From positions 28,303,535 through 28,367,534 of the forward strand of contig OZ020520.1 of NCBI GenBank assembly GCA_963971425.1: DNA of 64,000 nucleotides, read 5' to 3'. Below, one piece after another: positions 4,738 through 63,800 of this stretch. Within the stretch, counting starts at the first letter, position 1. Each line of letters opens with the position of its first letter. A model generated the notes under the pieces. It was given only the letters and a program-made list of their open reading frames with translations, was not told the origin of the DNA and did not search any database. A program made the translations under genes and the position numbers. Origin of the DNA: Bryoerythrophyllum caledonicum. Lineage: Eukaryota > Streptophyta > Bryopsida > Pottiales > Pottiaceae.

Positions 4738-5433
4738 CTGAGTAAAACAAGACAAAAGAAACCTTATGGAGTAGGAGATCGATTAGCAGAAAACTCAACC
4801 CCAATGAAGAAGGCAAAGAGAGAGAGAATCATAACCCATCGCCAGGGTTTCCAGCGCAGCAGATCCTAGGGTTTCGAGTAATGCGTCACTTCGAGGACTT
4901 TTCCAATTTTTTCTAAGTCACGGATCATGGCCTTGTTGCGCGCTGTCAAGCTTCACCATCACGTAGCTCCTCTCCGTCACCTGTAGAAACACACAAGCAC
5001 GCGCATCTCTGAACGTTCAGATAAGAAGAACAAAAAAACCTCTTTTCTGTTGCGTCCCCACATTGTACGACAGATTGTAGGAATCCCCTCGACCCAGGAA
5101 CCCTAAACCCAAAACGTAGGCTATCCATGGTTCATGGTAGGCAACCGTCTGCCCATTTGTTCCATCATCTGCTCATTTTTCTCCGTCATCTGCCCGATTT
5201 CTTTCATCCTCTGCCCGATTTATTTTCATTCATTGCGGCAGGGTTGTTTAGTCGCGGCAGTCTGCGGCATCCACATTCGTGATGTCCCACACAACGTGAG
5301 TTGTAGTTGCCAGCATGCATTCGGCTTTGATATGACGCTTGGGCTTGGAAGATACCCTCTCGTCAAATTTAGCCTTTAAAACATTTTGTACAACTGAAAC
5401 TGACTCCAAGCGAAGCCCGGTGACTACAGTCAA
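4738..5433. other. upstream flank of the HET gene
   Basis: This stretch should contain the 5' exon and promoter of the minus-strand HET gene. Several short ATG-started minus-strand frames exist (near 4827-4846), but none splices obviously to the acceptor at 4738-4740. From about 5130 onward the composition turns CG-rich and repeats short words such as GACTCCAAGCG, which suggests the start of transposon-derived sequence. Confidence 0.35.
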
Positions 5434-5439
5434 TCCAGG

Positions 5440-5480
5440 TTCGCGGTGTCAGGGCCCGGTTTTAGGCCTGACACCGCGAA
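5440..5480. repeat. 14-bp inverted repeat (hairpin) at the left edge of the MULE region
   Basis: Arms at 5440-5453 and 5467-5480 pair perfectly over 14 bp (TTCGCGGTGTCAGG with its complement) around a 13-base loop. It lies about 360 bp before the first transposon reading frame. It may mark or lie near the left end of the Mutator-like element; no target-site duplication was found there. Confidence 0.6.
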
Positions 5481-5800
5481 GTGTGGCCCTTCTTCCCAAG
5501 CGCCTTTTCGACTCCAAGCGCCCTTCTTCCCACGATAACGTTCACTTTCGCCCTCATTTTTTTTCGCACTGCCCGTATTCCTTATCGACATTCTCGCCGA
5601 TAGCCCCTTCTCCCCCCGCCTTCTTCAGATCACCGAAAGCCCCTTCTCGCCCCGCCACGTGTACTCCAGAATGACCCGTCCTTCTCGGCGGCTGCGGCGC
5701 AAAGTGTCATCCACATTGTTTGCGTTTGGCGCCGTCTTTCGCTCGATCTATTGTGCCGTGTAGTACCCTGCCGGAAGGGGAGTGCTTGTCTCCGCGTGAA

Positions 5801-6319
5801 TGGAGTTCCTCGATCTCAATCTCCCCATACAGGACAAGCCAAATGGGAATTCTGGCAAGACAACGCCACCAAGCGTTGCCGATAACGGGGCAGCAGGGAG
5901 GAAATGGAGGCGTCAAGGGAGAAAGATACCGGCTGGCATCCGAGAAGGGGGTGGAGGACCTTGATGCCGCGTTCCGGGAAGGCCCGCATGCAGACTACCT
6001 GAGAAAACACGGTGACAAGGTTCTTCCGATGCGCGATTCATTACAGAACCCTCGTCTAGGAATTTTGATATGGAAATGTCTTAGGTGGAATATGGAGGCC
6101 GAGAATGATACGAGGTTTGTAGAGGATCCGCAATCATCGAAGAGGAAGCAGTCCAAGCTTATCGCCTACATTCCCTGGGATATAATCTTGGATTTCGTAG
6201 AAGGTGAGCAGTCTGGCCGAAAGGATGTAGAGACTACCTTCATCCGCGACAAGAACAACCCCACAAACGTCGGCGAGAAGACGCACTATCGGTGGAATTG
6301 CCACATCGAGTACCAGCGG
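5801..6319 (+). pseudogene. N-terminal exon of the MULE transposase gene
   Basis: An ATG near 5801 opens a frame beginning MEFLDLNLPIQDKPNG that ends at a TGA near 5960. A second frame then continues with VEDLDAAFREGPHADYLRKHG and YIPWDIILDFVEG to HYRWNCHIEYQ, ending at a good donor (CAGCG|GTAAGTG at 6319). The change of frame suggests one frameshift. The segment precedes the transposase core and probably is its DNA-binding N-terminus. No standard domain is recognised in it. Confidence 0.5.
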
Positions 6320-33737: not shown

Positions 33738-36250
33738 AATTTAGCTAGTGATTCATCTGTAAATTGATGTCCAATTTTGCGCTTTTCTCGTTATCCTGGC
33801 TCTTTGACTCTTGCTTGATATGTTCTATAGAATCAGATGGTAGCTGGGTAGCCACTGGTTTAACTTTCTTCGCCACAGTCTTATACTTAGTCTGAACAAT
33901 GGCTTCATGTTTTAATTGATAACTTGTAGCAAATCCAACATTTGTTACTACCTTCTCCAACTCATCATAAGTTGCTCTTGAATGTATCTCCACTGTAACA
34001 TCTTCATCCACCTTTGTAGGTAAGTTCTCTAATACTTGTATCAATTCATTCTCCAATCATGCTTCTTCAAATACTCCATTTATAACTTCATCACTTGAAA
34101 CCAAACCCACTCTTCTTAGGATTTTCTCTTGTTTCTTCACCTTTCTCCTATTTATATGGTCCATCTCCTCAGTCTTTTGAAAACTCACAAATCCATCACC
34201 AACCGAATCCAAACAACCATAACTCAATTTATCTACATTGGGGATTGCAGATAATCTACTTGCACCTATGTACCCCTACTCGCCACAGGTGCTCTTTAGA
34301 AATCCAAAAACCTGGTCATTGAGGGCTCCAAAGTCATCTCCCTCAATTGCTCTTTATGTCTTTCATGAACAGGTTTCACAGTGAGAAATTGCACAGCCTC
34401 CATTTTATCACAACTGCGAACCCTGCCATAATGTGAACCATCATCCAACACTCTTGTCTCCATCCTTGAAGCTGTAATATAAGGTTGACAAAGAATCACT
34501 GGAGACGTGACACAATTTTGCACAAAGAAGTTTTGCTCCACTTCCACATCTCCGATCTTAGTCTTCACAGCAAGACAAGCTCCATAGAGATTGCCTTGCT
34601 CATTATTTGCACCTCTAATCACCCAACCATGGTTGATGTTAATTGGCCATTTGTTCTTCTCATACACTCGCCTAGACGTGAGGTTGATCTCTGATCCGTG
34701 ATCAATCAAGGCCAAGATTGGATCCTTAAAATCTCCAAGCCTCACTTGAGTCTCTGTAGTAGCTCTGGCCCAATAAGAAACATAATAATTTCTCATTTCA
34801 TCATCACCCTTTGAGGAACTAACAACATTTGCTTCCTGTACAATCTTCTTTTTTATACCAGATTCCACAAAAGCACACTCAGGCAGATACCCCTTTGCTT
34901 TCTCAGAATGATTCATTTGAGCACCATCCTCCATATCAACCTTATTCCCAAAGCTTGGGAATGCAGATTGGGCAAATACTTGTCCAATCTCCTCCTCATC
35001 ATCCTTAGATACATGTGTATCTAGTGCCTCCACCATAATAGCCTGGGCCGTCATTTGTCTTTTCCTCTTTATCACATCAATAATCAGCTCATGAAAATCC
35101 CTCTTTGTAATACCAAGGGCCCCTCTCAGAGTAAATTCGATTTTGGCATCCAAAATCTTTTCCTCCAAGATACTCTTCATGTCTGTGGATGACTCAATGT
35201 CAGATTGAAGCTTATAGGCAGGATTTTTACCTCTAAGCTTGCTTGGTTCATCCTTCTCTTTCTCTTTATTCTTCTCCCACCACTCCTTTGATAATGGTAT
35301 ATCACCAAGATGACTAGGAGATGGCCTCTTTTCTTCCTTTAGACCTTGAGAAGCCTCTTTGTTTCTTTGAGATCTTCTCTTGTTTGATGGCTCAGCAACA
35401 TCATCCTCTTGAGCAGTTCTGCCCCTCTTCTCTTCAACCGTAGCATCATGCAAGTCATCAGCCTGTTGATCCCTATCCAAAAATATTTTGATGTTGATAG
35501 CATCAACCGGATCATCCCATCTAGTCATCTTCCTGATGACTTCAGCTCCTCTCTTCATAGCCTCCGTGGCAAGTGAAGAAGCAATCTTGATTTCCTTCGC
35601 TTTGATTGAAACAGAGTAAGACTCTACTCCAATATCATGCTTGACACCACTTTTGTGTGTCTCCTCTTTCACTAGCTTCTTCATACCTCCCTTTCCAAAG
35701 TTGATCTTCAAAGGCTCATCAGAACCTGTAAGTCTGATCCTACCTTCTTTGAAATGCACAATATTGTCTTTGATTGCAGCTTTATAGCTGTCACCATCAC
35801 CACGTCTGTGCTCTAAACTGTCACACCACATACATCTTTCGACATACCCTTATCAGATGTCTTCGATGAGTTTCTCCCATGAGACTTCTTCAATTCCATC
35901 ATCTCCACCTTAAGATCGCATATGCCCTTGATCAACTGCTCCAAAGTGTCATCCTCGACAGTCTTGGACAGCTTCTGAGGCATCTGAAGAGATCTTGAAG
36001 TCTGGGAGGTTGGCATTGGCTCTAATTGTGGTGATAAGCCACGAGTCTTGATCCTTTGTTGTTTGGTAACAAGTCCCACTGTCTCCTTCACCAGCCTCCA
36101 GGTTGTTTCAAGTTTGTAATCCCACTCTCCAAAGTCCTATCGGCTAAATGGAAGAGCAGCTTGTCTTCTAGGCCTTCGTCAGTTGTCTGTAGGAATAACT
36201 CAGTCTTCCTAGGATCCAATAACTGCCTCTCATGTCGTGGTAGTTGACCG
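33738..36250 (-). pseudogene. Gypsy fossil: gag and protease region
   Basis: Relic of the 5' part of the Gypsy-type element. A long frame (34,296-35,831) carries a retropepsin-like motif (LALIDHGSEINLTSRRVY) followed by VILCQPYITASRMETRV. Upstream are charged gag-like segments (WWEKNKEKEKDEPSKLRG, PRKTELFLQTTDEG). It meets unrelated sequence near 36,250. Confidence 0.7.
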
Positions 36251-36295
36251 GACGAGGCTATCGTGTAAGCGGTGAGCGATGAACGGTGAGTAGTT
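36244..36295 (+). repeat. solitary GCTATC(TT)GTGAGCGG-type end sequence
   Basis: GAGGCTATCGTGTAAGCGGTGAGCG-like sequence, the same type as the terminal repeats of the 39,910-47,203 element, abuts the gag end of the Gypsy fossil. It may be an end of another, mostly lost, member of that TIR family. Confidence 0.5.
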
Positions 36296-36584
36296 AGATT
36301 TGGATATTTTAGATAAAAAAAATAGTTCATACGTAGATGAAGATTTAGAAAATAAAAAAATTCCAAAATATTTTACTACATATAGTACAATTTGGGACCT
36401 ATAACTGTGGAATATTACTTCATAGAAACTACTGAAAATTCGTTCTGAAGATATATTTCGTCATGGGGTAAGTTAGAAAAATGAATAAAATTGCAATTAC
36501 TCTCGTAGATTCTGTGAAACAAAATTTGTTGTCTTTTATATTCTGTTAGCGCGATGCACATATAGTGGAGTTCAGGTAGTTAGA

Positions 36585-37214
36585 TTATGAAGAGTACTTT
36601 GATGTCTTCGGAAGGCATGCGATGTGCCATTCAGAAGGGTCGCATGCAGTCTCCTCCACAACAGTGACGTGGTGGCGATTGATTTGATGAGTGGGTCGGT
36701 GTGGTTCAAAGACTGGCTCCTCCCGATCAGAAGGTGTAGGAGAATCAAGGAGTGGAAGGTTGTGGTGGTTGTCATTGAGCACTGATCTAGTTTGGATGCG
36801 TGGTTTTGACATGCAAATCTTGTCAGGCCTGTGAGACTCATATTCAGAACCAAAAGTTGTATCTGGCTTTCGTTTAAGAGAAATAAATACCTCTTTTCCT
36901 TCAAGGTGAGGCGTTCTGGTGCACAACACGTTGGCGCCAGGCATCTTTAAGAGTGGAGTGGTTTCGAGTTCAAGCCGATAACCTCTGAGCAATTCTGAGC
37001 TAGAGCTCTTCCTTTGACGGACCAGTACCACGGCCCTCTCTTTTGAGGAACTGGTAATATGCTACGCACAACATAATGCCTCGAACAAAGCCGTCCGCGG
37101 TTGCCACGTACAGGTCGCTCCCCCAATCGCCGGATTGTTGTTTCCACTTGTTATAGATCGATTCCGCAAGGTTACATGATGGCATTTCTGCAAGTTCGTC
37201 TTCAGTGAGATCCT
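36585..37214 (-). pseudogene. repeat-associated hypothetical protein fragment
   Basis: After an acceptor (CAACTGCAG) the minus strand reads DLTEDELAEMPSCNLAESIY, NKWKQQSGDWGSDLYVAT, DGFVRGIMLCVAYYQFL and GRGTGPSKEEL. In a second frame it continues PGANVLCTRTPHLEGKEVF and YESHRPDKICMSKPRIQTR. It looks like real but broken coding sequence. I recall similar frames among repeat-associated hypothetical proteins of non-seed plants but cannot name a family or function. It lies next to the truncated 5' end of the Gypsy fossil; a link is not shown. Confidence 0.45.
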
Positions 37215-37479
37215 GCAGTTGTAAAATGGTGTCAAATTAGCCTTATCAGAGGATTTAAGTAATGATTGGCGGCGAAGTAGATTATGAAGAATAGGTAGAG
37301 GAAGGTAGAGGAATTACTAGCTACATGAAGCCACCTCACTGCCGGTTACAAAAGTGCGAGAAGGCAAGCCAATGCTTCGTTCCTGCATTCATGCGACTCT
37401 GATTTCCATCCTTTTGTCCTTCATTTGTTGGGTCTAGGGTTACATGTGTTGGGTTTCTGATTTTTGTCTTTGGTTTGCA

Positions 37480-38859: not shown

Positions 38860-39909
38860 TCCGTATGGTCAAAGTTTATGAAATTTTTTGAGTGTCACTT
38901 TGTAGTAGTTAAGCTGCAAGGAATTTTAGGGGTTAGTTGAGATCTTATCATTAAAATTGGAAATAAAAAGTTTTGTTTTCTTTCATACTCATTACACTAA
39001 ATTCAGTGACTTTGAAATGTTTTTGGTGTGAAATTATGATGGTCCTGTAGGAGTTAACCTCTAAAAGCCCAAGTGTCACAAAATGGGCCATGGCAATTTG
39101 AAAATTCGATTAGGTTCCTATGGTGTGAACTTCTAACATTCTTCTTCAAAAATTTTAGTGTAGAAGGACATTATTAAAACCTATGTGGGAAAATGATTTT
39201 TTTCTAAATCCGAAATCATATGAAAAAATTATAGCAATTTGAATTTTGAACGAGGAAAGCGGGCACATTGGGCACCTCCAAAAACTTTTGCTAAAATAGT
39301 CTATTGAATGTGAGATTTTCAATACTAGCAAGTAGTATTGTTTCCTTAAGGCACCACAGCCTTGGTGTAGTGGTTTGAGTCATGGCACACTGGTGAGGTG
39401 GTTGTGAGTTCAAGTCCTATTGCCGGCAAGGTGCCTACCACCATAATCCACCCAATTGTGGTGGGGGGTCCCAAGGCCTCGTTGTATGGGGACCCACAAA
39501 GCCCTTGGGGGAGATGACATGTCGGTTGTCTCTAAGGCAATTAGTGTAGGGAAGCACTTAGTGTAGAAAAGTGTTTACCCTCGAGAGGGGGAAGTAGTTC
39601 TATTACACTAGCCTATGTCCCGTGGCCATATGCTTAGTGAAGAGAATGAACAAACTCTATATTCACGCCGGTCCCCTTCGGAGATTGGAGTTCTTCTTTC
39701 TTTTTTTCTTTTTTTAAAAATTATTTCCTTTCATATTCTCAAAAAAAAATCTTGTCTTTAGTGGAAAATAGCGCATGAACCCAAGTCAAATATTTTCACA
39801 TACTGCCACACATTGTTGGGCAAGGTACCAAAAAAAACTTTTTTCCACATAAAACTTAGAGATTTTAAATTTTTTAACTTTTGATTTTTTCCACAACAAT
39901 ATGTGGTGT
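38860..39909 (+). repeat. dispersed AT-rich repeat, copy 1 left part (split by a SINE and a TIR element)
   Basis: It shares ordered blocks with 57.7-58.6 kb: CTCTAAAAGCCCAA, TAGGTTCCTATG(G/A)TGT, GGGCA(C/A)..CCAAAAA, GAGATTTTCAATA, TTATTTCCTTTCA, ACCCAAGTCAAA(T/C)ATTTTCACA and ATGTGGTGT. A SINE (39,348-39,719) interrupts it, and at 39,909 it stops at the 7.3-kb TIR element. It resumes at 47,204. Its nature is unknown; it is non-coding. Confidence 0.7.
39348..39719 (+). mobile_element. tRNA-derived SINE, copy 1 (full length)
   Basis: TGGTGTAGTGG (A box) and AGTTCAAGTCC (B-box-like) lie near the 5' end, and the 3' end is a T/C-rich tail (TTCTTCTTTCTTTTTTTC). It is flanked by near-identical 11-bp repeats ATTGTTTCCTT (39,337-39,347) and ATTATTTCCTT (39,720-39,730). 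The related repeat at 58.23 kb reads straight through this point, so the insertion is clean. Copies of the same family lie at 56.1 and 58.6 kb. Confidence 0.8.
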
Positions 39910-40569
39910 CAGGATTGCTATCTTGTGAGCGGCGAGCGGGGAGCGTAGAGCACTGAATTTTTGAAATTTTTTTGGTAGTGTTTTTTGATGAATTTGGAAA
40001 GGGTCGCCTATGGCCGTGGATTCTATTTAAACTGTGTTGACATATGAAAAATAAACAGAAATTTACGACGACAATGGGCTTGGACATATGGAATTATAAG
40101 TAGTTTAGGATTGATTGCAATAATTCAATTGAAATTGGAAGGGACGCTTACGGGTGAGGATTTAGAGTTTAGGGTACTGCGACAAGGTAATAGACTAGGA
40201 AATACAATGGAAAAAACCGAATTTATATGGTTTAGGGTGGCAGGCAGTATCCATGTGATACGTAGTTCATACCCTTATAATACCTTGATGATATCCATGT
40301 AATACCTAGGGGATAAAAAGTAGATACCATGGAGATATCCGTTGTGTACGAACCACTCTAAATTGAAACATTCCAATTCTTCGACTACGGTTGTTTAAAA
40401 AAAAGCAATGCCTAAGATTCAAAGCATGTAAACTTAGAAGACATGCAGCTTGGTTACAAAGGATATTTATAATTAATCATATATTTAATAGTAGATAGAA
40501 CGAAATCTTCTCATCCCGCAGCATGACATACGATGTTTTTTGATAGACATACATGAAAAGAATGGGATT

Positions 40570-43041
40570 TTGACATGAATGAAGATGACTCACGATGGGA
40601 CAGGTAGAAGGTCGGTTGCTAGTTGAGGGTGAAACGCCCATCGTCAGTGTCACCGCTGGAGGGACTGCAAATCTTCCAAATCCCCCTAGTTGAGTAAACA
40701 ACTTTTGAGGCCCCTCCTTCGCCACCAAGGCCGCGAACTCCATGTACCTCTCCTTCGTCTCTTTCTTCTCCTTCTTTGAACTCTCCTTCTCTAGCCTAGC
40801 AGCCTCCCTCTCATGTTCCTTAATTACTGCCGTAGCCGCTTTCTCAACAGCCTTGGCTTTGGCCTTCTCGAATTGCTCCTCAGACGCTGCCAACGGAGCC
40901 GCCAACAAGGGAAGTATGCTGCTGGAAATAGGAGGGACCGCAATGGATTCGCAGGCCACTTGTAGCTGAACCTCGTCTCCAAGGGTGGGATTCACCTCCC
41001 GCATCTCCAAGTACCACGGGCATTGGAGGAGGTGGTGCACAAAAAATCGACGCCTCTAAGTATAGATCTGTGAAGATACACTTGGAGCAAAAGTATCTAT
41101 CCACTTTGTGAAACGGATGGGTAGATCTCCGACTAACAAGGCTCTATGGGCTACGAGCACTCTCCAAAAATATCGCATCACTGCTCGCTTCATGACCTTC
41201 TCGCAATCGTCATGCGCCATAAACTCCTCGTTCTTCGTGTAGGAGCCTCCCTTTCCGATGTGAGTAGAAAACACTTTAGTCCACAACGTCATGCTCTTTG
41301 CCTCAATCCATTTTCCAATGGAGGGGATGGAATTCGGAAGCCCTTCACTCTTAAGGACAATGTTGTCCTCAAGAAGAATCTCTGCGTAGAGCTTCTCAGA
41401 CTCTTCTTCTAGCTGTACAACGAAATCCACATAGTTAGGAAATGATCATAGAACAATCATACAAAAAAGATGTGAATGTCAAGAAAGATTGGATCTTACC
41501 CGAGCCCAGAACGTTGCCTTGTCAATCCAGCCACGAAGAACCTTATCCGATGCTCGCGACGCGGGGAAGTTATACTCCATTATGCTGCCCTTGCTCATGT
41601 TCCACCACCTGCACCAGCGCGACTTGAACTTTGCAGCTACCCAAGCCGTGGCGATGAGCTGGAGTTTTTTGGGAGTCATCTTGGGCCGCACCTGGTAAAC
41701 ATCAGAGTGACAATTCACCTACATCACAATATCAAGAATTAGAGTGGAATTTACAAGGGCAGAAGTTAGAAATCCAATATGAAAAGGAATGGAAAAAAAC
41801 ATTTATCCTATCTCTTTGAAGAAATCCTCCCCGTTAGCCGGATTGGCAATTGCCAACATCCGAGTGAGCACGGTCTGGCAAGTCGTTTTCTTCTTTTACA
41901 CAGCTTCAGTGCAACGGCTGACCAACTGTGCAGCACTTCCACGCCGATCTTCACTAACACCCGTGACCAAGTTGTCCTTAAATTTTTGGATTTTCTCCTC
42001 TTGAACAGCAATCAGGTCCCGCTGTGGACAACATAAGGTCGTGATCAGTTTTAATATTTTGAATTGGAATATTAAAATGAGAGGAATGACAAGTGCTACC
42101 TGGACAAAGGGATCATTATGTACCTCATACATGAGCTTCACAAATGCTTCGAGAGTCATATGATACCACTTTCGTTGTCCCTTCTTTGACCACTCAAGGA
42201 CACTCAGTTCGTAATCTTCATCGCTGATGAGCCCCTTCAACCGCTCAAACTCTAAGAGGCCAAAATGCTGAACACGCTTTATGTCGTGTGTGAGGTGTTG
42301 CACAACTTGATCTGATTATTTTTGCCTACGACAAAAGAATATTTCAGTGTCATTAAATGAAGTACAATAGTAAAAGCAACTGAAACAAACAAAGTTCAGA
42401 GTATCTAAGTTCGAGCGTACATGTTCAAGTCGGTCATTACGGTGAGCAAGATGTGTCGGTTCTCGATAGTCGGCTCGATAACCACGGCTCTAACGTGCAC
42501 GTGAAAGGTGACATCGGATGGGTGTAGTTGGGAAATCACCTCGGTCCAAGCCATATGGCGATGATTGCCATATGGCTCGAAGAAGAACTTCTCTGAAAAC
42601 GCCGAGTACTCCGGTCGAGTCTTCAACAACTCCTCGAACTTCTGGTCCTCTTCAATCCAAAGCTTAGACCACGTTGACCTGTCTAGTGGTTGCACCCGCT
42701 TCTCGACAAGGGAGAAATTCTTCACTGGCACATAAAAACATGCAGAACCAGGCCGATACCCATTGACGAACTCCCCCTTCAATTTCTCGACATCACTTCT
42801 AAGAGGTAACCTCACCTCATTCATGGGCACCATCCGGCAGAGAGGAATTGGGAGATCACCAGCAAAAGAGCAGATGCTGCTCTGTAGGATGTCGTATGAG
42901 GTCCCACGGATGGACCTCCGCAAAGATTGAAGTGTAGGAGCCAGCCCATGCTCATCAACAAGTTCAGTGACGCGTGCTTTGTCCTCCATAATTTCAAGGT
43001 CCTCACGTGAAGAAGTTGATGTAGGTCCCAAACTCTCAACC
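40570..43041 (-). CDS. ParB/sulfiredoxin-like domain protein encoded by the TIR element
   Basis: At least five minus-strand exons with good splice sites. Exon 42,412-43,041 (acceptor ATTGCAG, donor AACAT|GTACG) reads MVPMNEVRLPLRSDVEKLKG, then PEYSAFSEKFFFEPYGNHRH-MAWTEV, then VRAVVIEPTIENRHILLTVM. Exon about 42,108-42,330 reads KWYHMTLEAFVKLMYEVHND. Exon about 41,850-42,017 begins RDLIAVQEEKIQKFKD. Exon about 41,508-41,692 has WVAAKFKSRWCRWWNMSKG. Exon about 40,570-41,420 has RYFWRVLVAHRALLVGDLP and ends in a Lys/Glu/Ala coiled coil (EKAATAVIKEHEREAARLEK). A 'do-not-exceed' set of residues before GNHRxxAW resembles the ParB/Srx fold, whose GxxRxxA loop binds nucleotide; this is by eye. Two in-frame stops suggest decay or missed introns. 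Function is unknown. Confidence 0.5.
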
Positions 43042-43189
43042 TGCAATAAGTATGCATGAGAAACCGAAGCAACAAATTGTATCCACCTGAACTAGAAACT
43101 TGAAATGAATTAAGAATTAAATCTAGAACGGACGAGTAAACTAAATTCCTGCTCATGCAATCCAACAAGTATGGCCAAAATGGTCATGA

Positions 43190-44260
43190 AAAAAACTTCG
43201 GGCGACATAAAGCAATGTCCCTCCCCCACCCCAGCCTAGCCTTCTCAAGCCACTCACTCACTACTTCCCACCCCCACCCACTCTCCCTAGCCTCCCACCC
43301 ACACTCCCCACCGTCACCACCTCTCGCATGTGGACTCCCTCAGCACTCTCACGAGGATCAGGCAGAGAGAAATATAGAAATCGTGAACACGATCTCCTGA
43401 TCGTGACCGTCAAAGGAAGAAGAAATATGCGCGCACGTCAAAGAACTCTCTATCTGGGAGAGGATTCTCAATTTTTTATCAAAATCAATGACCTCTGAAA
43501 ATGGCTTTCGGATCCGAAAGCCAAAATTAGGGGTCACTGATTTTGGAAAAATTCACGATTCTCCCCCCTGCTGGATGAGATCCTTCGCGCGCGCTCTCTT
43601 AACAACAAGACTTACATACTTCTAAGCAATCAAGGCAGAGCATATATCACATCGTACCCCCTCCTCACCCCAGCCTAGACCTCACATATTACTCACTCAC
43701 TACAGAATAACTCCCGTGGACCTCCCCACACACACTCACGTCCCACCCCACCCACACTCTCCAGCCTCCCACTCACGCTCCCCAGCCTACCATGCACACT
43801 CCCCACCCTCCCCTCACACACTCACCACCCTCCCACCCACACTCCCCACCCTCACCACCTCTCGCATCTGCACTCCCTCAACACTCTCACGAGGATCAGG
43901 TAGAGCAAAATATAGAAATCGTGAACACGATCTCATGATCATGACCGTCAAAGAAAGAAGAATTATACACGCGCGTCAAAGAACTCTCTAGCTCGGAGAG
44001 GATTCTCAATTTTTTATCAAAATGAGTGACCTCTGAAAATGGCTTTCGGATCCGAAAGCCAAAATCAGGGGTCACTGATTTTGGTAAAAATTCACGATTC
44101 TCCCCCCCTCTGGATGAGCTCCTTGAATTTTTACCAAAATGAGTGACCCTTGAAAATGGCTTTCGGATCCGAAAGCCAAAATCATGGGTCACTCATTTTG
44201 GTAAAAATTCACGATTCTCCCCCCCTCTCGATGAGATCCTTGAATTTTTACCAAAAATCA
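43190..44260. repeat. about 540-bp tandem duplication with C-rich minisatellite
   Basis: CTCTCGCAT(G/C)TG(G/C)ACTCCCT occurs at 43,321 and again at 43,861 (period 540 bp). Each copy is followed by an ACGAGGATCAGG block, an AGAACTCTCTA block and a palindrome around TTTCGGATCCGAAA. Each is preceded by CCCACCC/CACTCCCCA minisatellite sequence (43,225-43,330 and 43,730-43,860). A third, partial copy of the palindrome block follows at 44,112-44,250. Confidence 0.8.
44125..44210. repeat. 86-bp palindrome
   Basis: Perfect 25-bp arms (44,125-44,149 and 44,186-44,210, starting GAATTTTTACCAAAATG) enclose a perfect 22-bp palindrome (44,157-44,178) centred on TTTCGGATCCGAAA. Both share the same centre, with only 7 bases of imperfect symmetry between them. 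Related but less perfect copies are centred near 43,512, 44,050 and 44,626. Confidence 0.9.
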
Positions 44261-44265
44261 GTTAC

Positions 44266-44950
44266 AAGGTAAGAAAGTAAGGATGAATATTGTTTTTGAA
44301 GAATTTTTTGGATCTATTTTCATATTCATTTTTGTTTATCAAACAATGTTTCTAAAATTTCCAAGTTTTTCACTAGCTCAAAGGGGAGTTTTGGGCCACT
44401 CAAAATTTTGAAAAGAGTTGAAAATACATGTATGCTCATATGGAAAAATACCATATTCAAAAAATAAAATTATGAGGTTTACTTATTTACTTGAAAAGAA
44501 ACAACAACAGAAGCAAGACAAACTCTATGTTTTCTATTTTCTATTTTTTTAAATTATTTTTTGGAAATCAAGGCATGATTTTTAACTTTTGAGATCATTT
44601 GGAGTGCCCCAAATATGGCTTTCGGATCCGAAAGCCATTTTGGAGGCCCTCAAAAGTTCACAAAAAACTTGAAAGATCTCAATCTAGCAACAAAAGAAAA
44701 TCCCAAAATATAATTTATATTTTACAAAGAAAATTTACTCGATGGTTGAAGGTAAGAAAGTGAAGATGAATATTATTTTTGAAGAATTTTTTGGATTTAT
44801 TTTCATATTCATCTTTGTTTATCAAACAATGTTTCTAAAATTTTCAAGTTTTTCACTAGCTCAAAGGAGAGTTTTGGATCCAAAGGCTTTCTTTGGGCCA
44901 CTCAAAATTTTGAAAAGAGTTGAAAATACATGTATGCTCATTTGGGAAAA
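44266..44950. repeat. 483-bp-period duplication
   Basis: AAGGTAAGAAAGT(A/G)A(G)GATG starts at 44,266 and 44,749. Both copies continue for about 200 bp with TTGAAGAATTTTTTGGAT, TTTATCAAACAATGTTTCTA and GTTTTTCACTAGCTCAAAGG. A decayed third copy is visible near 45,045-45,100. Confidence 0.75.
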
Positions 44951-45249
44951 AAAATTCAAAAAATGGAATTGATAAATTGACTCAGATTATCTGAAGAGAG
45001 CAACAACAGAGGCAAACAAATTTTGTGTCTTGATGATAACTAAGATAGTTAATATTTTTGAATAAATTTTTGGGTTTAATTTCATATTTAAGGCTTCTTA
45101 TCTAGCACGCCATCTAGCAGTTTGATGGTAGTAGCAATAAGGACGTGCCTATAGAATATAAAAAATGGACATTTTTATTCCATTGAACTATATGCCTGCA
45201 ACAAGGCACCAACAATAACATTCTCTCTCATGTACCCAGGGTCAACACA

Positions 45250-46361
45250 TTCCCATGTGCAAGGTATGGAAAGAGTCCAAGACACAAGAGGAGGCTGAAG
45301 CACAATACTAAGTTATAAAAAAGTGGTGGTTATCTTTGGGTGCTACTGCCGAGAGCAAGCGTCTTGCTCTTGAGGATTGGATGGCAATATAGACAATGGG
45401 AGTGCACAATGCAACTTGTAAGTACTCTTAATGCCTTGTACATTTTGGAATTAAAAACTATTTAGAAATGTAATTAGAATTTACATAAGAATTATTGTGT
45501 CCTGGCAAGATCTCACGCTTGATGAAAGAGCAGGCATGCCATCTTTCAGCCTTTTAGATACATTCTATTATCATTGCCTCGTAAAATTTGAAACCACCAT
45601 GAGGTGTTTGTATGCGGCTACCATGGACAATATCATCCGAGCTTTCACAAAAATCACTTCATATTGAGCCTGGTTAAAACGTGGCACGATGAAAAAGATC
45701 ACAACATAGGTACGCTTTGATAGCGATCCATACAATGTTCAGGTGACTCTAGATTTATTGCAAAAGTTGTTCAACACTTTCCTAGGCCCTTCCAAGACTT
45801 GCAGACTAAAACGTGCGGAGATCTTTAAGTCTACCAAAACCAAGCTTGACATGCCACTCATGTCAGGCCACAATTTTTATTAATTGCATATGGTGAATTT
45901 CTCTAATCCACAAGATGGAACAAGAGTGACTCGAACGAGTACAGAAGAGGCCTTCAATGGACTAGATTCAACAGTTCTATATACAACTTCAGTGTGGAAT
46001 TGGTATGTGATCCATCAAAGTGGTTTATTGTTCGTGTGCTGAAGAAATTGACGCAAATATGCCAAACATTGTATGTCACATTGATGAGAAATGTGCCACT
46101 CGCCACTTGCCGCTCACCGTTCACGAGATAGCGTCGCTCCCATCACAGACTACTCCGCATGTAGTGCCCAGATTTCTTGAAGATGTCAGCAGAGGCGTTG
46201 GGAAAGAAGGGGCAATGGAAATATTGTAAGCATGTGTACTACATCTTACGTTACTTGTATAAACTGGACTACAAAAAAGACTTGTTCATGCATGCTCCAA
46301 GCTGTAGCTTCAATGAAGTTATACGCATACTAGAGCTTGCTAATATTGCAGAAATCGCATG
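45250..46361 (+). pseudogene. plus-strand coding remnant in the TIR element
   Basis: Three coding-like stretches in one direction. 45,255-45,420 reads KVWKESKTQEEAEAQY then WWLSLGATAESKRLALEDW, ending at GTAAGT. 45,590-46,010 reads HHEVFVCGYHGQYHPSFHKN and HFILSLVKTWHDEKDHN, then VVQHFPRPFQDL. 46,180-46,361 reads SAEALGKKGQWKYCKHVYYI and LHAP-like FMHAPSCSFNEVIRILELAN. A TIR-like sequence (46,091-46,145) interrupts it. Stops in each part mark it as decayed. I recognise no domain. It is divergent from the ParB-like gene and may be its partner in the intact element. Confidence 0.4.
46091..46145 (-). repeat. internal GCTATCT(C/T)GTGA..GCGG end-like sequence
   Basis: The complement reads GAGCGACGCTATCTCGTGAA followed by CGGTGAGCGGCAAG, the same type as the element's terminal repeats, in the orientation of a right end, 1.06 kb inside the real right end. 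It may be the end of a second, nested or older copy. Confidence 0.6.
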
Positions 46362-47203
46362 ATGATGTGCGTCTCGGCATAAATTTTAATACTCTTTCTA
46401 TATCTAGATAGCTGATGTGGTGTCAATATTCCAACTGCGTGATTGTAGGTGGTAGTTTATTTATTTTTGTTTTTTTTTCAAACCGCAGAGGAGTTGTATT
46501 GTTGGCAACTTCCAACAGTTCCGTTAGATAGAGCCAACATACCACAACGGGGATTTGAACCCTACACCTTTCCATTTGGAGAAGTTGGAAAACTCTCACC
46601 ATCACCCAGTAGTTTAAGGTTTTCATAGACTATTGATATTTCTATAGAAACATCTTATGTTATTGCTTCAAAAAATAAATTATCTTACTCCACATCTAGT
46701 ACTCTAGCACTTCATTAGAAGGTTATGTTTTATAAATTGCCATCCTATATAAAAGTACAAATGTAATCCTCAAAAGAAAAAAAAGCACAAAGATTAAAAT
46801 TCCATAACATGCATAAGAACATGGGAAAAAAACTATCAATTGTCAATGTATCCACAACTATAGGGTACTTTCTTAATTTAGTAAATTTTGTAACATTCAA
46901 GGCCAAATTTCACAGTTGTACCACTTATCGAAAAAAAATGTGACACACCTTTAAACTAAAAGAGGAACTCTAAAAGACCGAAATAAAGGAAAAACACACA
47001 ATTTTGCAGTATACCATGGTTGTAGGGTATTTTCTAAAATTAGAATTTTTTGAAAAATATGTCACCAAAATTTGATGATCTGCTGAAAAAACCTCGAATT
47101 TCACTTTTTTCCCAAAAAAATGACAAAAAAATTCAAGATTTTAGGATTTTTTATGCTCACTGCTCGCCGCTCGCTGCTCACCGCTCACAAGATAGCGTCG
47201 CTG

Positions 47204-47990
47204 TATATGGTGTAGACCTTCATATTGACCGTTTGGATCATGAATCTAAAACATATTAAGTTTCTAAAAAACATATTAAGTTTCTGAAAAACTAGAACGT
47301 GATTTGGCAATTTTTGAACCTCCACTACTAGCACAATTGACTTGAATAAGCTACACCTTTTTTCTACCTCTAAGAATTGGAGTATAAGGAACTAACATCA
47401 TCCTTTAAACACAATGGTAATAGGTTTAGACCTTATGAAGTGCAAAAATTTGATACCTAGTGAAGTCAAAGTCTGCTAATCTACCAAACGCAGAACACCA
47501 TATTCATTATATTGGGAGATTGTGAGCCTCCCAAAATATTATATGAAGCTTAAGTCGACCTAAACATGCAAATATTTACTGAATTTACATTATGAAATTT
47601 GTCCTATATGTACAATATGGTTACATATTCAGCTCGAGTTGAGCTGAATGTGCACAAACAATTTCTATTGGGAAAACCATTCATACCTTTCAAAGTCCTG
47701 AAAATCTCCCAATAGAATGAATATGGTGTTGCACGGAAGAAAATGTACCATTTGCTTGACTTCAAACACTATAATCTTTCAATCTGTGCGGTCAAAGTTT
47801 ATGAAATTTTGTAGGGACATCAATAAAGAAGTCTCTATTGAGATCCTACAGTTAGATGTAGAAATATATAGTTTTGTCTCTCTTCTTAGGCAATATACTA
47901 GAACGGAGCAGTTTTGAAGTGTTTTTGGTGCGAAACTGCCTTGGGCCTTTAGGGGTTAAGTAGAGAATCCTCATTTTGGGAATCATGTAT
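47204..47990 (+). repeat. dispersed AT-rich repeat, copy 1 right part
   Basis: Continues the repeat interrupted at 39,909: TGACCGTTTGGAT, ATCTAAAACATATTAAGTT and GAACGTGATTTGGCAATTTTTGAA match 58.43-58.51 kb. The end (47,755-47,960) has the CTATAATCTTTCAATC and GTTTTTGGTG(C)GAAA..GCC(T)TTGGGCC blocks seen also at 58.8-59.05 kb. Confidence 0.65.
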
Positions 47991-48539
47991 TAGGCGTGCA
48001 GTTGGTCCATGTCCCGATGTAGAATGGAATCTGCCCATGGGCATGCAACGACAATGATGGTGGATTGAGGCCAGATTTGTAGGTATGGGGAGGAGTTGAG
48101 TTCGAGTCTCAACTCTGATTGTGGGGGACCGTACACAGTGGAGGGACCGTATACAGTCATTTGTTATATGAAATCTTTTGCAATTTCATTGATTTTAATC
48201 GTGCCTTCAAAAATTTCATATCAGATTTTTATAAAATTATTTTCATATGGATTTGAGATATCATTTGTTTAAATCTTGAATTGAAACTTTGTGATACAAT
48301 TTTTTTATAGTAACAATATAAATTTTTTCAAAAGATTCAAACGATATCATTTCGACATGCAGAAAATATTAGACCCAAGGGCCCCTTGGAACGATATGGT
48401 TTTCACATGCGAACAATTTCATTCAAAGACCCTCGGATATTTGTGATGTTGTTCAGGAGAAATGTCTCGGTTCCGACAGTAGTCTCACCGGTAGCGTTGC
48501 TTAATGCATTTGTCATTGTTTCGATGGTGTCGAATCTGA

Positions 48540-50640
48540 ACACCATGGTTGTTTAGAGGCGGTTTGAAGAGCCGTGAATAGATAGGGTCGGGCCCGATAC
48601 GTAAATTGATGGCAGTTGAAGTTGATCGACATCGTAAACAGTAGGCCCACGCACATGCGCAGATTTGGCTGGCGACGCCGGCTCACATGGATGGGGTCTG
48701 TTCACCAAAACAGACCTCTATTGAGAGTGCGCCTCAACCTCAGCCAAAGTTAGGCAGGCACAAAAAAAAATGAGCCGCCTCTCTCAGCCTCAGCCGCCCA
48801 CTTTTGTTTTACCCTTATCAACCTTCTGACACTTAAAATTAGAGTAAGTAACTCCAGCACAGTGTGAACACACGATGTGATGGGGTTTGAGGTGTTTTTC
48901 TTACTCAATGCGGCGTACGCCGGCGCACATGCAAGCGGCCTGCTCCCTGGCGTACGCCGGCTGACTTTCAAATACCTCGAACTCCTTCACACCGCGCGGT
49001 GTGAACGGGGTCGGAGCAGCTGATCCAGGCGCCAGCTTCTGACGCATGTGCGTCAGCCTAGTAGGTTCGGGAATTTCAGCCTCAGAGCTTTTGGTTCAAG
49101 TATCGGATCCGATACGTAAATTCCATCAACCAGTTTCTGGTCAACTACGGAGCCTCAGTCGAGGATCTCGGGCCCGATAATAGTATAGGTTGACCAGTTC
49201 CTGGTCTACTAATGGATCATGCGCATTAGTTTATTCACATGGTTCTAAGGTGCACTCAGTGGGACCAAAGGAATAGTTGTGGTATTCACGAACCACCTCA
49301 TCACGAAACGCGCAGACTTCTATCAGTTTCGAAACCTAAGGAATAGGTGTCGGGGCCGAAACCTGCTGCTCAGACTGCCGGAGTTGATCGATGTAGTTAG
49401 ATGGCAGGAAGCAGATTCGGGGCCTTAGTGTATGATGTCGGGCCCGATACAAGAATTCGGGGTACAGTTCCTGATGTAATCGAGAACATCAGTTAGTAGT
49501 GGTATTCACGAACCACCTGAACACGAATCGCGAAGTCTTGTATCAGTCGTGGGACGCAGGGGGGTGGTTAATCATGATTATGAATCATGATTCAGAGCCG
49601 TGAGAAGATAGGGTCGGGCCCGAGACAGGCCTTAGTGCAGCCAAAGTCGATCGACATCTTCAACAGTAGATTCGAGTATCGCATTGTCGGAGCCTGTGGT
49701 TTAAGTATCGGGCCCGATACGAGAATTCGAAGACCAGTTCCTGGTCTTGTACTGGAGACTGCGGTTTTATCGTGCACTCACTGGGACCAGATTATGAGAG
49801 AGTGTAGTTCCAACATGCACTCACTAGGACCACATTATGAGCACTGTCGCATGGCAATGACTTGGAGCAGTTCAAAGAGCAATCATCACATAGGTTGTGA
49901 TGCGGTGTTTAGAGGTTGGCATCGAGCACCGAAACTGGTTCCAAGGTAGATCCTAACGCGGTTAGTAGTGGTATTCACGATCCACCTGATATTTTTGTGC
50001 AAAGTCTTGTATCAGTCGTGGGGCGAAGGGGGGTGGTTAACCGTGATTATGAACCTTAGGCATTGGTTCTCAGAGCCGTGAGTAGATAGGGTTGGGCCAG
50101 AGACGTGCCTGAGGGCAGCTGAAGTTAATCGACATCTTCAACAGTAGGTTCGAGTATCTCAGGGTCGGAGCCTGTGGCTCGAGTATCGGGCCCGATACGA
50201 AAATTCGTGGACCAGTTCCTGGTCTTGTACTGGAGACTGCGGATCTCACTTGCACTCACTGGGACCATATTATGTGAGACTGCTGTTCTAACGTGCACTA
50301 TCTTGAGCACTGTCGCTTGTTAATGACTAGGAGCAGTTTATAGATCTATCATTACAAAGGTTGTGATGCGGTGTTTAGAGATTTGCCACGAGCACCGTAA
50401 TTGGTTCCAAGCGAGATTTTTACGCTGTTAGTAATGGTATTCACGAACCACCTGATCACGAAGCGCGAAGTCTTGTTACAGTCGTGGGGCGAAGAGGGGT
50501 GGTTGATCATGATTGAGAATCTTAGGCATTGGTGTCGGGGCCGATACCTGCGCACGGGCAGCAATAGTTAATCGAAACCGTTTGATGGGAGGTTCTAGAA
50601 TCGGAGCCTCAGTCGATGATGGCGGGGACCAGTTCCTAGT
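48540..50640. repeat. satellite with a period near 467 bp
   Basis: GGTATTCACGA(A/T)CCACCT occurs at 49,501, 49,970 and 50,436 (spacing 469 and 466 bp) and in a shortened copy at 49,281. Each unit carries GAGCCGTGA(A/G)(T/A)AGATAGGG, GACCAGTTCCTGGTC and the palindrome GTATCGGGCCCGATAC (49,705-49,720 and 50,183-50,198; variants near 48,590 and 49,440). Three main copies plus degenerate flanks. It ends where the helicase remnant begins. Confidence 0.8.
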
Positions 50641-60841: not shown

Positions 60842-63800
60842 ATGGAGATGAGCGTCAGGCGAATAGGGAGGGTTCGTCTTCTGTGCTTACTGGTGTGTAC
60901 TATCACGCTGCTTCAATGTGGGCTCGCACTCAATGAAGAAGGCGGGCTGTTGCTGGAATGGAAGCAGGGCCTTCAAGACACAGACAATCTCTTGGGCAAC
61001 TGGAATCCCGCGGACGCTACTCCTTGTGTGTGGGCTGGTGTAAAGTGCACTGACGGGTCCATATCTGCAATCGACTTCTCCAATTTCGACACTCTGACAG
61101 GCCCTATCACGGACAACACGTTTGGTAATTAAATTCTTCACTTGCTGATCACTATGATTTGCTTCAAAACTCTTCGCCATATATGGAGTCTGGTTTCCAG
61201 AGGTGTTCTAAGGCTTAACCTGTGACCAATTGTAGGGAAACTCGCCAACCTCTCGAGCTTCGATGTTGCCTACTCCAATCTCAGCGGTAGTTTTCCTGCC
61301 GACATCGTCAACTGCTCCAAACTTGTAAATCTCAACATGAGTTGGACCTGGATTGGGGGGCAAGTGCCGGACGAGATCTCGAACCTGAAAGACCTGCAGC
61401 AATTGGATCTCAGCCTCGCTTTCTTCAACGGGACCTTGTCGGACGCCATATTCCAGGAGCTCCAGGGGCTGAGAATTCTGAGCCTTCATGCCAACTACTT
61501 TTCCGGATCTGTCCCAGCGTCCATCGCTGCCCTGAAGAATCTGCAAAGGCTGACACTGAGCGTCAATTCATGGACTGGGAAGCTCCCCCTTGGCATCCTC
61601 CAGCTGCGGAATCTCAGGGTGTTTTGGTTCGGAGACGACAACATGGATATGATGCCGATGCTGGATTTCGCTGCGTGGGTGAACATGGAAGAGCTTCGGT
61701 TCCATAATGTGAGGTTCGAGCAAGGCCCGTTTCCGGCGGCGGTGGAGAAGATGACCAAGCTGAAGATCCTGCAGCTATCACTGTGCAACCTGACGGGCCC
61801 CGTGCCTGCGTTTATGCAGAACTTGACTGATCTGGAGCTCATCAACCTCGACAACAACTCGCTGAGCGGGGCCATTCCGGACATGTTCGGGGGAATGGCG
61901 AACCTGGTGGACTTCTCAGTGCAGTTAAACACGCTGACCGGCCCCCTTCCGCCCTCACTCTGGCAGTGCAAAAAGCTCCAAATCCTCTTCCTGTACCGGA
62001 ATAAATTCGAGGGCGATATTGCAGGAATCGGCAACTTCAGCGACTTGGTCACAGCGGACTTGTCGCAGAACACATTCACGGGGCCGATCCCGGCCGCGCT
62101 GGGAGCCCTCATGCGCCTGCAGCAGCTCAATCTCTCCTTCAACAACCTCAGCGGCGTGATTCCCCGGGGCCTCGCCGACTCAGAGGAAATTTTCGTAATC
62201 CGCCTCAACAACAACCATCTCATCGACGAGATTCCCTACAGCCTCGGCACGAAGTCGGTTCTTCAGGTTGTGGACTTCAGTACAAACAACCTCTATGGCC
62301 TCATCCCCCCGAACCTCTGCCGCGGCGACATGCTCCACTACCTCAACCTGATGAACAACAGCCTCACAGGCGGGATCCCGGAATCGTTCGGCAGCTGCAC
62401 CAACTTGGACATCGTCTTTTTGTCCAACAACGAGCTCGAGGGCCCCGTGCCGGAAGGCCTGTGGGCGGGACCGAGGATGACGAAGCTGAAGCTCAACAAC
62501 AACAACCTCAACGGGAGCATCGGCCACTCCATCGGCCGCGCGGGAGTTCTCTCCGTGCTCTTCGTCGAGGAAAACCAATTCTCCGGTCCGATCCCGGCCG
62601 AGATCGGGCAGACGATCTTGAGCAAGTTTCGCGCGTACTCAAACCGCCTCGACGGCGCTCTCCCGGAGCAGCTGGGAAACCTGTCCACGGTCACGGAGCT
62701 GTCCCTGCACGCGAACGCCTTCAGTGGCGCCATCCCGCCCGCCATCAGCCGGTGCCGGGAGCTCGTGCAGCTCAACCTCGCCAAGAACGACCTCCAGGGC
62801 GCCATCCCCGACGAGCTGGCCGACCTCCCGAACATCGCCATCATCGACCTGTCGGAGAACTTGCTCTCGGGCGCCATCCCAAAGCGGTTCTTCGGCCTGG
62901 TGCAGCTGCAGAGCCTAAACGTTGCGTACAACAACCTCTCGGGCGTGCTCCCCAAGCAGAACAACGGCCAGGCGTACGTGTTTGTCAACTTCACCGGCAA
63001 CTCGCACCTCTGCGTCGAGGGCGCCTGCCCTTACACGGACGCTGACGGCATCGCGCAGATGACCTCTCCCGGGTCGGGAATCGCCGATTCCTACAAAGTG
63101 AAGCTCCTCGCGTGCGGACTCGCTGCGGCCGTGGTGCTCCTGGTCGCGACGTCGTGTCTCTGCGCGCGGAGATGCAAGGGCAGAGTGCAGCATAGGGACA
63201 CGGAGCTCGGCGAGCTCACGGACGCCGAGGACTCGTGGATCCTGACGTCGTTCCAGACCAAGACCTACCACGAGTACGAGGTCACGGAGCTAGACGAGGA
63301 TAAACTCATCGGCGCGGGCGGCTCGGGCAAGGTGTACCGCGCCACGCTCACCAACGGCGAGTCCGTGGCCGTCAAGAAGCTCTGGGGCGTGAAGAAGGAC
63401 GGCGACGGCTCGCAACAGGGCGGCGGCCATGACCACGGCTTCCGCACTGAGGTACATGCCCCTAGCATCTAATGATGTTTTCTGCGCCAAGAATTGCGCA
63501 CTGATTGCACTCACTGATGCGCAGGTGAAGACGTTGGCCACCATCCGGCACCGCCACATCGTGAAGCTGCTGTGCTGCTGCACGAAGCGCGACAGCAACC
63601 TGCTGGTGTACGAGTACATGCCGAACGGCAGCTTGGGCGACCTGCTGCACGGCACGAAGGCGGCCACTCTCACCTGGGAGATACGCTACAAGATCGCCAT
63701 GGGCGCCGCCATGGTACCAAATCAAACCCCGGCATCGCATTGATCACTCACATTACCTTGTACCACCATGCTTGCACGTCGTGTCTTCTTGATCAGCCCA

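Follow-up and report, generated by a model that had tools for sequence, protein, structure and literature searches.

Several families of mobile elements carry accessory genes for proteins that might act on the element's own DNA. In Ectocarpus, the 21.5-kb transposon Sola1-1_Ec32 has a ParB-methyltransferase gene on the strand opposite to its transposase, for which self-modification has been proposed, and the paper that describes it cites similar proteins for green and red algal transposons, along with giant EnSpm elements in red algae (PMC12477816). In phages, ParB is found fused to an N6_N4 methyltransferase, and such fusions are enriched on mobile elements (PMC12704722). In the VANDAL elements of Arabidopsis, the targets of VANC, a protein that removes methylation, are often tandem repeats that vary between related copies (PMC5735166). 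Mutator-like elements (MULEs) generate 8-11-bp target duplications, have terminal inverted repeats (TIRs) of 14-500 bp and a SWIM finger, and often carry a second open reading frame (ORF); Table 1 of the same source lists FAR1, SET, PMD, DUF, ovarian tumour gene, MutB and unknown ORFs among these extras, and that table names no ParB or DNA methyltransferase (PMC6446971). Here we describe a 7294-bp element, and the transposon family to which it belongs, from a 64,000-nucleotide stretch of the moss Bryoerythrophyllum caledonicum (contig OZ020520.1, positions 28,303,535 to 28,367,534; hereafter the window).

Taking the evidence together, we consider it probable that the element is a deletion derivative of a high-copy Mutator-superfamily transposon, whose relatives of about 15 kb would use an accessory gene resembling ParB and methyltransferases, together with a set of palindromes, as a mark of self. 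We describe the family as probably Mutator-type, carrying a ParB-methyltransferase-like gene as its accessory and an array of palindromes, the accessory module itself having already been reported in algal transposons. Like Sola1-1_Ec32, it is a giant DNA transposon with an opposite-strand gene combining ParB-like and N4/N6 methyltransferase domains. Unlike that element, which has a Sola transposase, it is probably of the Mutator type and makes 10-bp duplications, a distinction drawn from the published description; in further contrast to the element as described, it has a noncanonical motif IV and a palindrome array between its genes. With the VANDAL elements it shares a probable membership of the Mutator superfamily, an extra protein and short motifs within variable, noncoding tandem repeats; however, VANC has the DUF1985/DUF287 domains, neither of which was found in a Pfam scan of three intact exons of the moss family, and whereas binding and loss of methylation have been shown for VANC (PMC5735166), binding by the moss accessory protein is a proposal. 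The lengths of its duplications and TIRs and the presence of a second gene are as in MuDR and other MULEs (PMC6446971), and the SWIM-like end read in its sequence would be a further likeness. The phage fusions resemble it in that domains of these two kinds are united in a single protein and occur on mobile elements (PMC12704722), but they are prokaryotic, neither "plant" nor "transpos..." appears in the text that describes them, and the moss protein has no ParB_N match. Among the open-licence papers listed by our searches, we found no land-plant or Mutator transposon with a ParB-methyltransferase gene.

The boundaries set by the original prediction proved exact, and its 9-10-bp target duplication with one mismatch turned out to be 10 bp long. 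The left end opens with CAGGATTGCTATCTTGTGAGCGG (its first letter being the C of CAGGATTGCTATC) and the right end is the G of GATAGCGTCGCTG, which reads CAGCGACGCTATCTTGTGAGCGG on the minus strand; the arms are imperfect, with 85% complementarity between 39917-39956 and 47157-47196. Allowing up to three mismatches, the TIR 16-mer has four matches in the window against 0.41 expected, and none of 100 shuffled sequences had as many. When the flanks are fused around a single copy of the duplication, the resulting 286 bases have 40 scored matches in the genome, which are gapped and 79-99% identical; 27 of these cover the query in full, and the junction is crossed by 39, the single exception being the window's own right flank. 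An empty host site is thus present elsewhere in the genome. The element therefore landed inside a dispersed host repeat, as the claimed continuity of that repeat across the insert had implied.

Across the 437 Mb of genome searched, the 16-bp core of the TIR occurs at 804 exact places (none for a reversed control) and, with up to two mismatches, at 2,366 places (89 for the control). We compared 14 TIR pairs, nine of them long and five of about 200 bp, along with the copy in the window. All ten long copies, the window's included, are flanked by duplications of 9-10 bp that differ at no more than one position, a length that had already been likened to that of Mutator elements; nine end in CAG...CTG and the tenth in CAG...GTG. 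Among the pairs of about 200 bp, two have a duplication and three have none. The copies of about 15 kb hold a transposase and a divergently oriented accessory gene, with the repeat array between them; in copies other than the window's, the two genes occur as a pair free of stops. The interiors as well as the ends are common to the family copies; hence the search for further copies with the same ends, which the original prediction had suggested, returned related elements and not host sequence trapped once, and two of the outcomes that it had named as refuting it, a lack of further copies and unrelated interiors, were decided in its favor. Two copies of 14,963 bp are 99.6% identical, which suggests recent activity. 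As separate observations, contigs C5 and C13 have no places among the listed transposase, MULE, ParB-like, methyltransferase or flank matches, in which the other contigs of C1-C15 appear, and may be different in kind; and the locus L015 (G000:C1:7196100-7206000, local positions 4887-5916) has open frames, presumably of a Tc1/mariner transposase from the look of the sequence, nested in a 12.5-kb copy.

The copy in the window is a nonautonomous, mosaic deletion derivative of the 15-kb form, in which the methyltransferase part of the accessory gene is gone and little of the transposase is left. At 40602/40603 it lacks 1,577 bp that are present in the 15-kb copies and that include the methyltransferase-like part. 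The same junction is found in the 6,685-bp copy E730, to which it is 95-96% identical over most of its length and less so in the repeats, and in E2_7414, to which it is 89-94% identical, so the deletion form itself moved or was copied. The original prediction had recognized a minus-strand, multiexon ParB-like gene, a divergent plus-strand coding remnant and a core of repeats and palindromes between them. All three are present, the gene with 82-85% identity to the intact copy, but its statement that no familiar transposase lies inside does not stand: the plus-strand remnant at 45106-46359 consists of C-terminal transposase pieces, including the SWIM-like end, whose alignment to the two transposase ORFs is given in Table 1. 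What the window copy lacks is the part of the transposase with both presumed catalytic Asp regions.

In the intact 15-kb copy E19179, the plus strand has transposase ORFs of 713 (ORF A) and 476 (ORF B) residues. They contain the stretch FMADSAGANW, then CLFHW, and end with CSCPDFL...WKYCKH, which, from the motifs, we take to be the pattern of a DDE transposase with a CxxH and a SWIM finger. Thus, full-length members would encode a divergent Mutator-type transposase in two long ORFs, with two Asp residues, CxxH and a SWIM-like C terminus by reading. The intact transposase has at least 64 matches in the genome, and among the matches listed, 21 of 29 copies (≥96% identity, residues 1-712/713) are free of stops. 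The Transposase_mut model (PF00872) has four places in the genome, only one of them above its cut-off (28.2 bits; E, 1.2e-4); this place belongs to the family, sharing 79% identity with the intact ORF across 144 residues. A diverged family copy, below the cut-off (E, 0.0065), aligns to the same stretch of the model. Since one family copy exceeds the cut-off, the Mutator superfamily is the better filing, and the transposase would represent a very divergent version of that type.

The accessory gene of the intact copies has several exons on the strand opposite to the transposase. One open frame of 259 residues contains FFFVWDGNHRHMAW...VPVRAVVIEP, which resembles a ParB or sulfiredoxin core; profile scans of the exon found no ParB match, and against phages it had only four chance-level matches (E, 3-8). 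The N-terminal region is ParB-like at the motif level only. A separate lineage, L065 (G000:C1:130700-134300), has a ParB-like frame of 194 residues; among the matches listed, 17 of 18 copies are free of stops and eight have equal scores, and it is probably a recent burst. The two places of this lineage that can be compared with listed TIRs (C1:130776 and C1:49272988) have no exact TIR core within 10 kb.

The C-terminal part of the accessory protein has, in order, the motif IV position, NLMEALIDLCTQQEDIVLDLTASTG and, past an intron, ASIKACKALKRHILALEED, an order that we take to be that of the beta-class N4/N6 methyltransferases. Alone, this part scores below the cut-off of the Pfam model PF01555 (E, 0.13 and 0.024), a model that has 84 places in the genome at E values up to 1, eight of them above its cut-off. 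The link is made by a sister family found with this model (L064; G000:C9:14278600-14281500), to which the domain of the intact copy is 28% identical over 254 residues (85.5 bits), and which matches PF01555 above the cut-off (E, 3.7e-7). It also matches families of phage DNA methyltransferases, at a best E value of 1.6e-8, and, below their cut-offs, NCBIfam models for DNA methyltransferases, one at an E value of 4.9e-5 and others that include CcrM. The sister methyltransferase matches 394 phage records (best E among the 12 matches listed, 6e-5); no relative of it was found in viral contigs, the phages have no match to the methyltransferase exon of the present family, and a sequence search of the PDB with that exon gave nothing credible. 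Supported through this sister family, the C-terminal domain is by sequence comparison N4/N6 DNA-methyltransferase-like. The sister query itself has 151 matches in the genome, eight at 97-100% identity and the others weaker, some lying just inside the TIRs of the family. On contigs C1 and C2, 23 matches were listed; excluding two on C2 beyond the listed TIRs leaves 21, of which five lie at most 3 kb inside an exact TIR and face it, with none on the wrong side, whereas 0 of 20,000 random placements reached five (mean, 0.036). One of these matches lies in the family copy E7196, and some may be the gene of this family and not that of its sister.

In the 15-kb copies, the array between the two genes is a series of units some 525 bp long, and every unit contains a perfect palindrome. 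The sequence TGGCTTTCGGATCCGAAAGCCA, of which the window has four copies identical over 22 bp, occurs exactly 7, 7, 7 and 6 times in four copies of 14.4-15 kb and twice in E730. Other lineages have GTCCCTCGGATCCGAGGGAC (six times in E7196) or GACCCTCGGATCCGAGGGTC (once in E61057), and the palindromes of E2_7414 are imperfect. Every lineage that has a palindrome retains the 10-bp core TCGGATCCGA, while the arms differ and yet stay complementary; the pattern is that which a dyad-symmetric binding site would show. A 20-mer from the array, GGCTTTCGGATCCGAAAGCC, has 319 exact places in the genome (control, 0). Among the matches listed, 50 of these places form 14 clusters on contigs C1-C3, and for 13 of the clusters a listed ParB-like exon is no more than 3.5 kb away, the cluster being in each case at the 5' side of the exon. 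Outside the element, at 48467-50535, the window has a second repeat array with a period of about 470 bp, whose palindromes center on TCGGGCCCGA / TCGGATCCGA (for example, GTATCGGATCCGATAC at 49100 and GTATCGGGCCCGATAC at 49705 and 50183).

Both genes are under low ratios of nonsynonymous to synonymous substitution (dN/dS) between lineages. When E19179 is compared with the L065 lineage, which is 65-74% identical, the ParB-like exon has a ratio of 0.07, and two parts of the methyltransferase-gene exons have 0.17 and 0.12; a methyltransferase piece gives 0.13 against E61057. For the transposase pieces, the comparisons with E2_17944 and E61057 give 0.05-0.13, and that with the Transposase_mut place gives 0.07. 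All four pieces give 0.15-0.25 against E5814, and the ParB-like exon gives 0.24 against the window copy. Based on the anatomy of the element, this selection and the precedent of VANC, it is likely that the accessory protein acts on the palindromes to block silencing or to aid transposition. We propose that the window copy was moved by a transposase supplied in trans, which would act on the TIRs, and that the accessory protein might bind the palindromes and mark the element as self, its role most likely being that of an anti-silencing or transposition cofactor, as with VANC in the VANDAL elements.

The assignment to the Mutator superfamily has to be weighed against several results. The MULE model PF10551, which finds 138 places in the genome, does not match the intact transposase of E19179, a point in which the family differs from MuDR and other MULEs; no fitting Pfam match was seen at E values up to 1, a SWIM profile match was likewise absent from the Pfam scan, and a PDB sequence search with the transposase gave nothing. 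None of the 138 PF10551 places lies within 15 kb of the 65 transposase-family places compared (64 listed matches and the one Transposase_mut place). Set against five MULEs from this genome, the transposase gave an hhalign E value of 0.17 over 11 columns, with too little diversity; hmmsearch gave 0.07-0.18 in one direction and 0.45-0.55 in the other, and blastp of one family copy gave 0.004 and 0.007 to two of the five, all of these in tiny databases. One could imagine a new cut-and-paste superfamily that has no kinship with Mutator and arrived at the 10-bp duplication by convergence, the more so as the termini begin with CAG, which is unusual for MULEs, and as Pfam scans of four transposase ORFs or pieces showed Transposase_mut in just one. 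We regard this as quite improbable: the copies above and below the cut-off meet the same stretch of the model, the DD-CxxH and SWIM-like arrangement can be read in the ORFs, and the duplications and TIRs fall within the ranges published for MULEs (PMC6446971). The "new class" of transposon offered by the original prediction gives way, narrowly, to the Transposase_mut match, although PF10551 is negative; the same profile search supplies the recognizable transposase that it had asked about. Its other suggestion, of a MULE that traded its transposase for other genes, fares no better, the ParB-like gene being the family's own and standing beside the transposase in the 15-kb copies. A related notion is that host genes without a role in the element were captured by chance, as in Pack-MULEs. 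The window copy, which has coding exons and no complete transposase, would by itself fit such a capture, but the same gene occupies the same place in transposase-bearing copies of 15 kb and is kept between lineages at 65-76% protein identity with low dN/dS; the Pack-MULE reading is contradicted by the membership of these exons in a gene of the 15-kb copies, and we hold it to be extremely improbable.

Returning to the proposed Mutator-type transposon with a self-marking accessory gene, the accessory part of the proposal also has points that count against it. The ParB_N model (PF02195) has no place in the genome at E values up to 1, a PDB profile search with a six-row alignment of the ParB-like exon found only a ribosomal protein (E, 0.035), and a single-sequence structure model of the exon in the window has a mean pLDDT (predicted local distance difference test score) of 32.8. 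The copy E2_17944 has no palindrome, one of the 14 palindrome clusters (C3:12285173) has no ParB-like exon nearby among the matches listed, and synonymous divergence between distant lineages is near or at saturation, and not finite in two comparisons. Further, gene conversion between the arms could give a constant core with complementary arms in the absence of any protein. For the array only, and compatibly with the preferred explanation, the palindromes might thus be a structural by-product, hairpin-prone repeats symmetrized by conversion and a possible source of silencing hairpin RNA. Perfect symmetry that reaches 142 bp in one unit, much longer than a protein site would need, and arms that differ between lineages and remain complementary are what it would account for; the 10-bp core that is constant where the arms are not, and the constant position of the array upstream of the ParB-like gene, are what it would not, and we see it as possible but doubtful. 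The accessory protein might alternatively be an active methyltransferase that modifies adenine or cytosine of its own transposon, with the palindromes, which carry GGATCC at the center, as its target. Its domain order and motif I/II region are presumably beta-class N4/N6-like, the sister family has the above-described Pfam, phage and NCBIfam matches, and self-modification is the role proposed for Sola1-1_Ec32 (PMC12477816). Against such activity stands motif IV: the five copies read (E19179, E5814, E2_997, L065 and E61057) all have DVPE at this position, and the sister family has DQPF. The canonical form of this motif is [DNS]PP[YFW], as in DPPY. The glycine pattern of motif I is also altered (DLTASTG), and together these changes would be expected to weaken catalysis. 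Because DVPE is found in all five copies, we prefer a cofactor to an ordinary methyltransferase and consider the latter unlikely. As a more specific and frankly tentative proposal, a Mutator-type transposon might have taken over a prokaryote-like ParB-methyltransferase fusion, its chemistry disabled, as a sequence-specific self-recognition factor, which would be loaded onto the palindromes of the array between the genes, parS-like sites whose core TCGGATCCGA is fixed and whose arms vary by lineage, and keep the element expressed or bring together its ends.

Table 1. Coordinates in the window of the element, its ends and its internal features
Feature	Position	Strand	Basis or comparison
Target-site duplication, left copy (tatgtggtgt)	39900..39909	.	
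Whole element, deletion derivative of ~15-kb family, 7294 bp	39910..47203	.	
Left TIR (CAGGATTGCTATCTTGTGAGCGG...)	39910..39956	+	
Deletion junction relative to 15-kb copies, 1577 bp	40602..40603	.	
Long exon of accessory gene, N-terminal part, residues 11-287 of 564 in intact copy	40603..41436	-	tblastn, 82% identity
ParB-like exon, motif GNHRHMAW	42408..43178	-	85% identity to intact copy; label from motif
Core repeat array between the two divergent genes	43219..44950	.	
Perfect palindrome TGGCTTTCGGATCCGAAAGCCA, copy 1	43502..43523	.	
Perfect palindrome TGGCTTTCGGATCCGAAAGCCA, copy 2	44040..44061	.	
Perfect palindrome TGGCTTTCGGATCCGAAAGCCA, copy 3	44157..44178	.	
Perfect palindrome TGGCTTTCGGATCCGAAAGCCA, copy 4	44616..44637	.	
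Remnant of transposase ORF A, residues 597-712 of 713, broken pieces	45106..45441	+	alignment to 15-kb copy
Remnant of transposase ORF B, residues 21-213 of 476	45506..46071	+	alignment to 15-kb copy
Internal copy of right TIR (nested or rearranged end)	46096..46138	-	
End of transposase ORF B, residues 412-476, partial SWIM-like segment CPDFL...WKYCKH	46165..46359	+	83% identity
Right TIR (CAGCGACGCTATCTTGTGAGCGG... on minus strand)	47157..47203	-	
Target-site duplication, right copy (tatatggtgt), one mismatch	47204..47213	.	

Elsewhere in the window, a second, more diverged relative lies at 36257-37215. Its plus strand has a TIR-like 16-mer (two mismatches) at 36257, and what is left of transposase ORF B lies on the minus strand at 36600-37215; it has no DNA-level match to the seven family copies compared. 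Other open frames in the window are a DUF4100 frame at 34299-35849 (E, 1.9e-8) and a long leucine-rich-repeat frame at 61226-63469 (E, 5.7e-41).

If the explanation preferred here is true, a ParB-methyltransferase module would have been joined to another superfamily of transposases, in this case together with a candidate target sequence, and the role of such accessory proteins would become directly testable. The Mutator elements would then possess a second system of self-recognition, independent of VANC.

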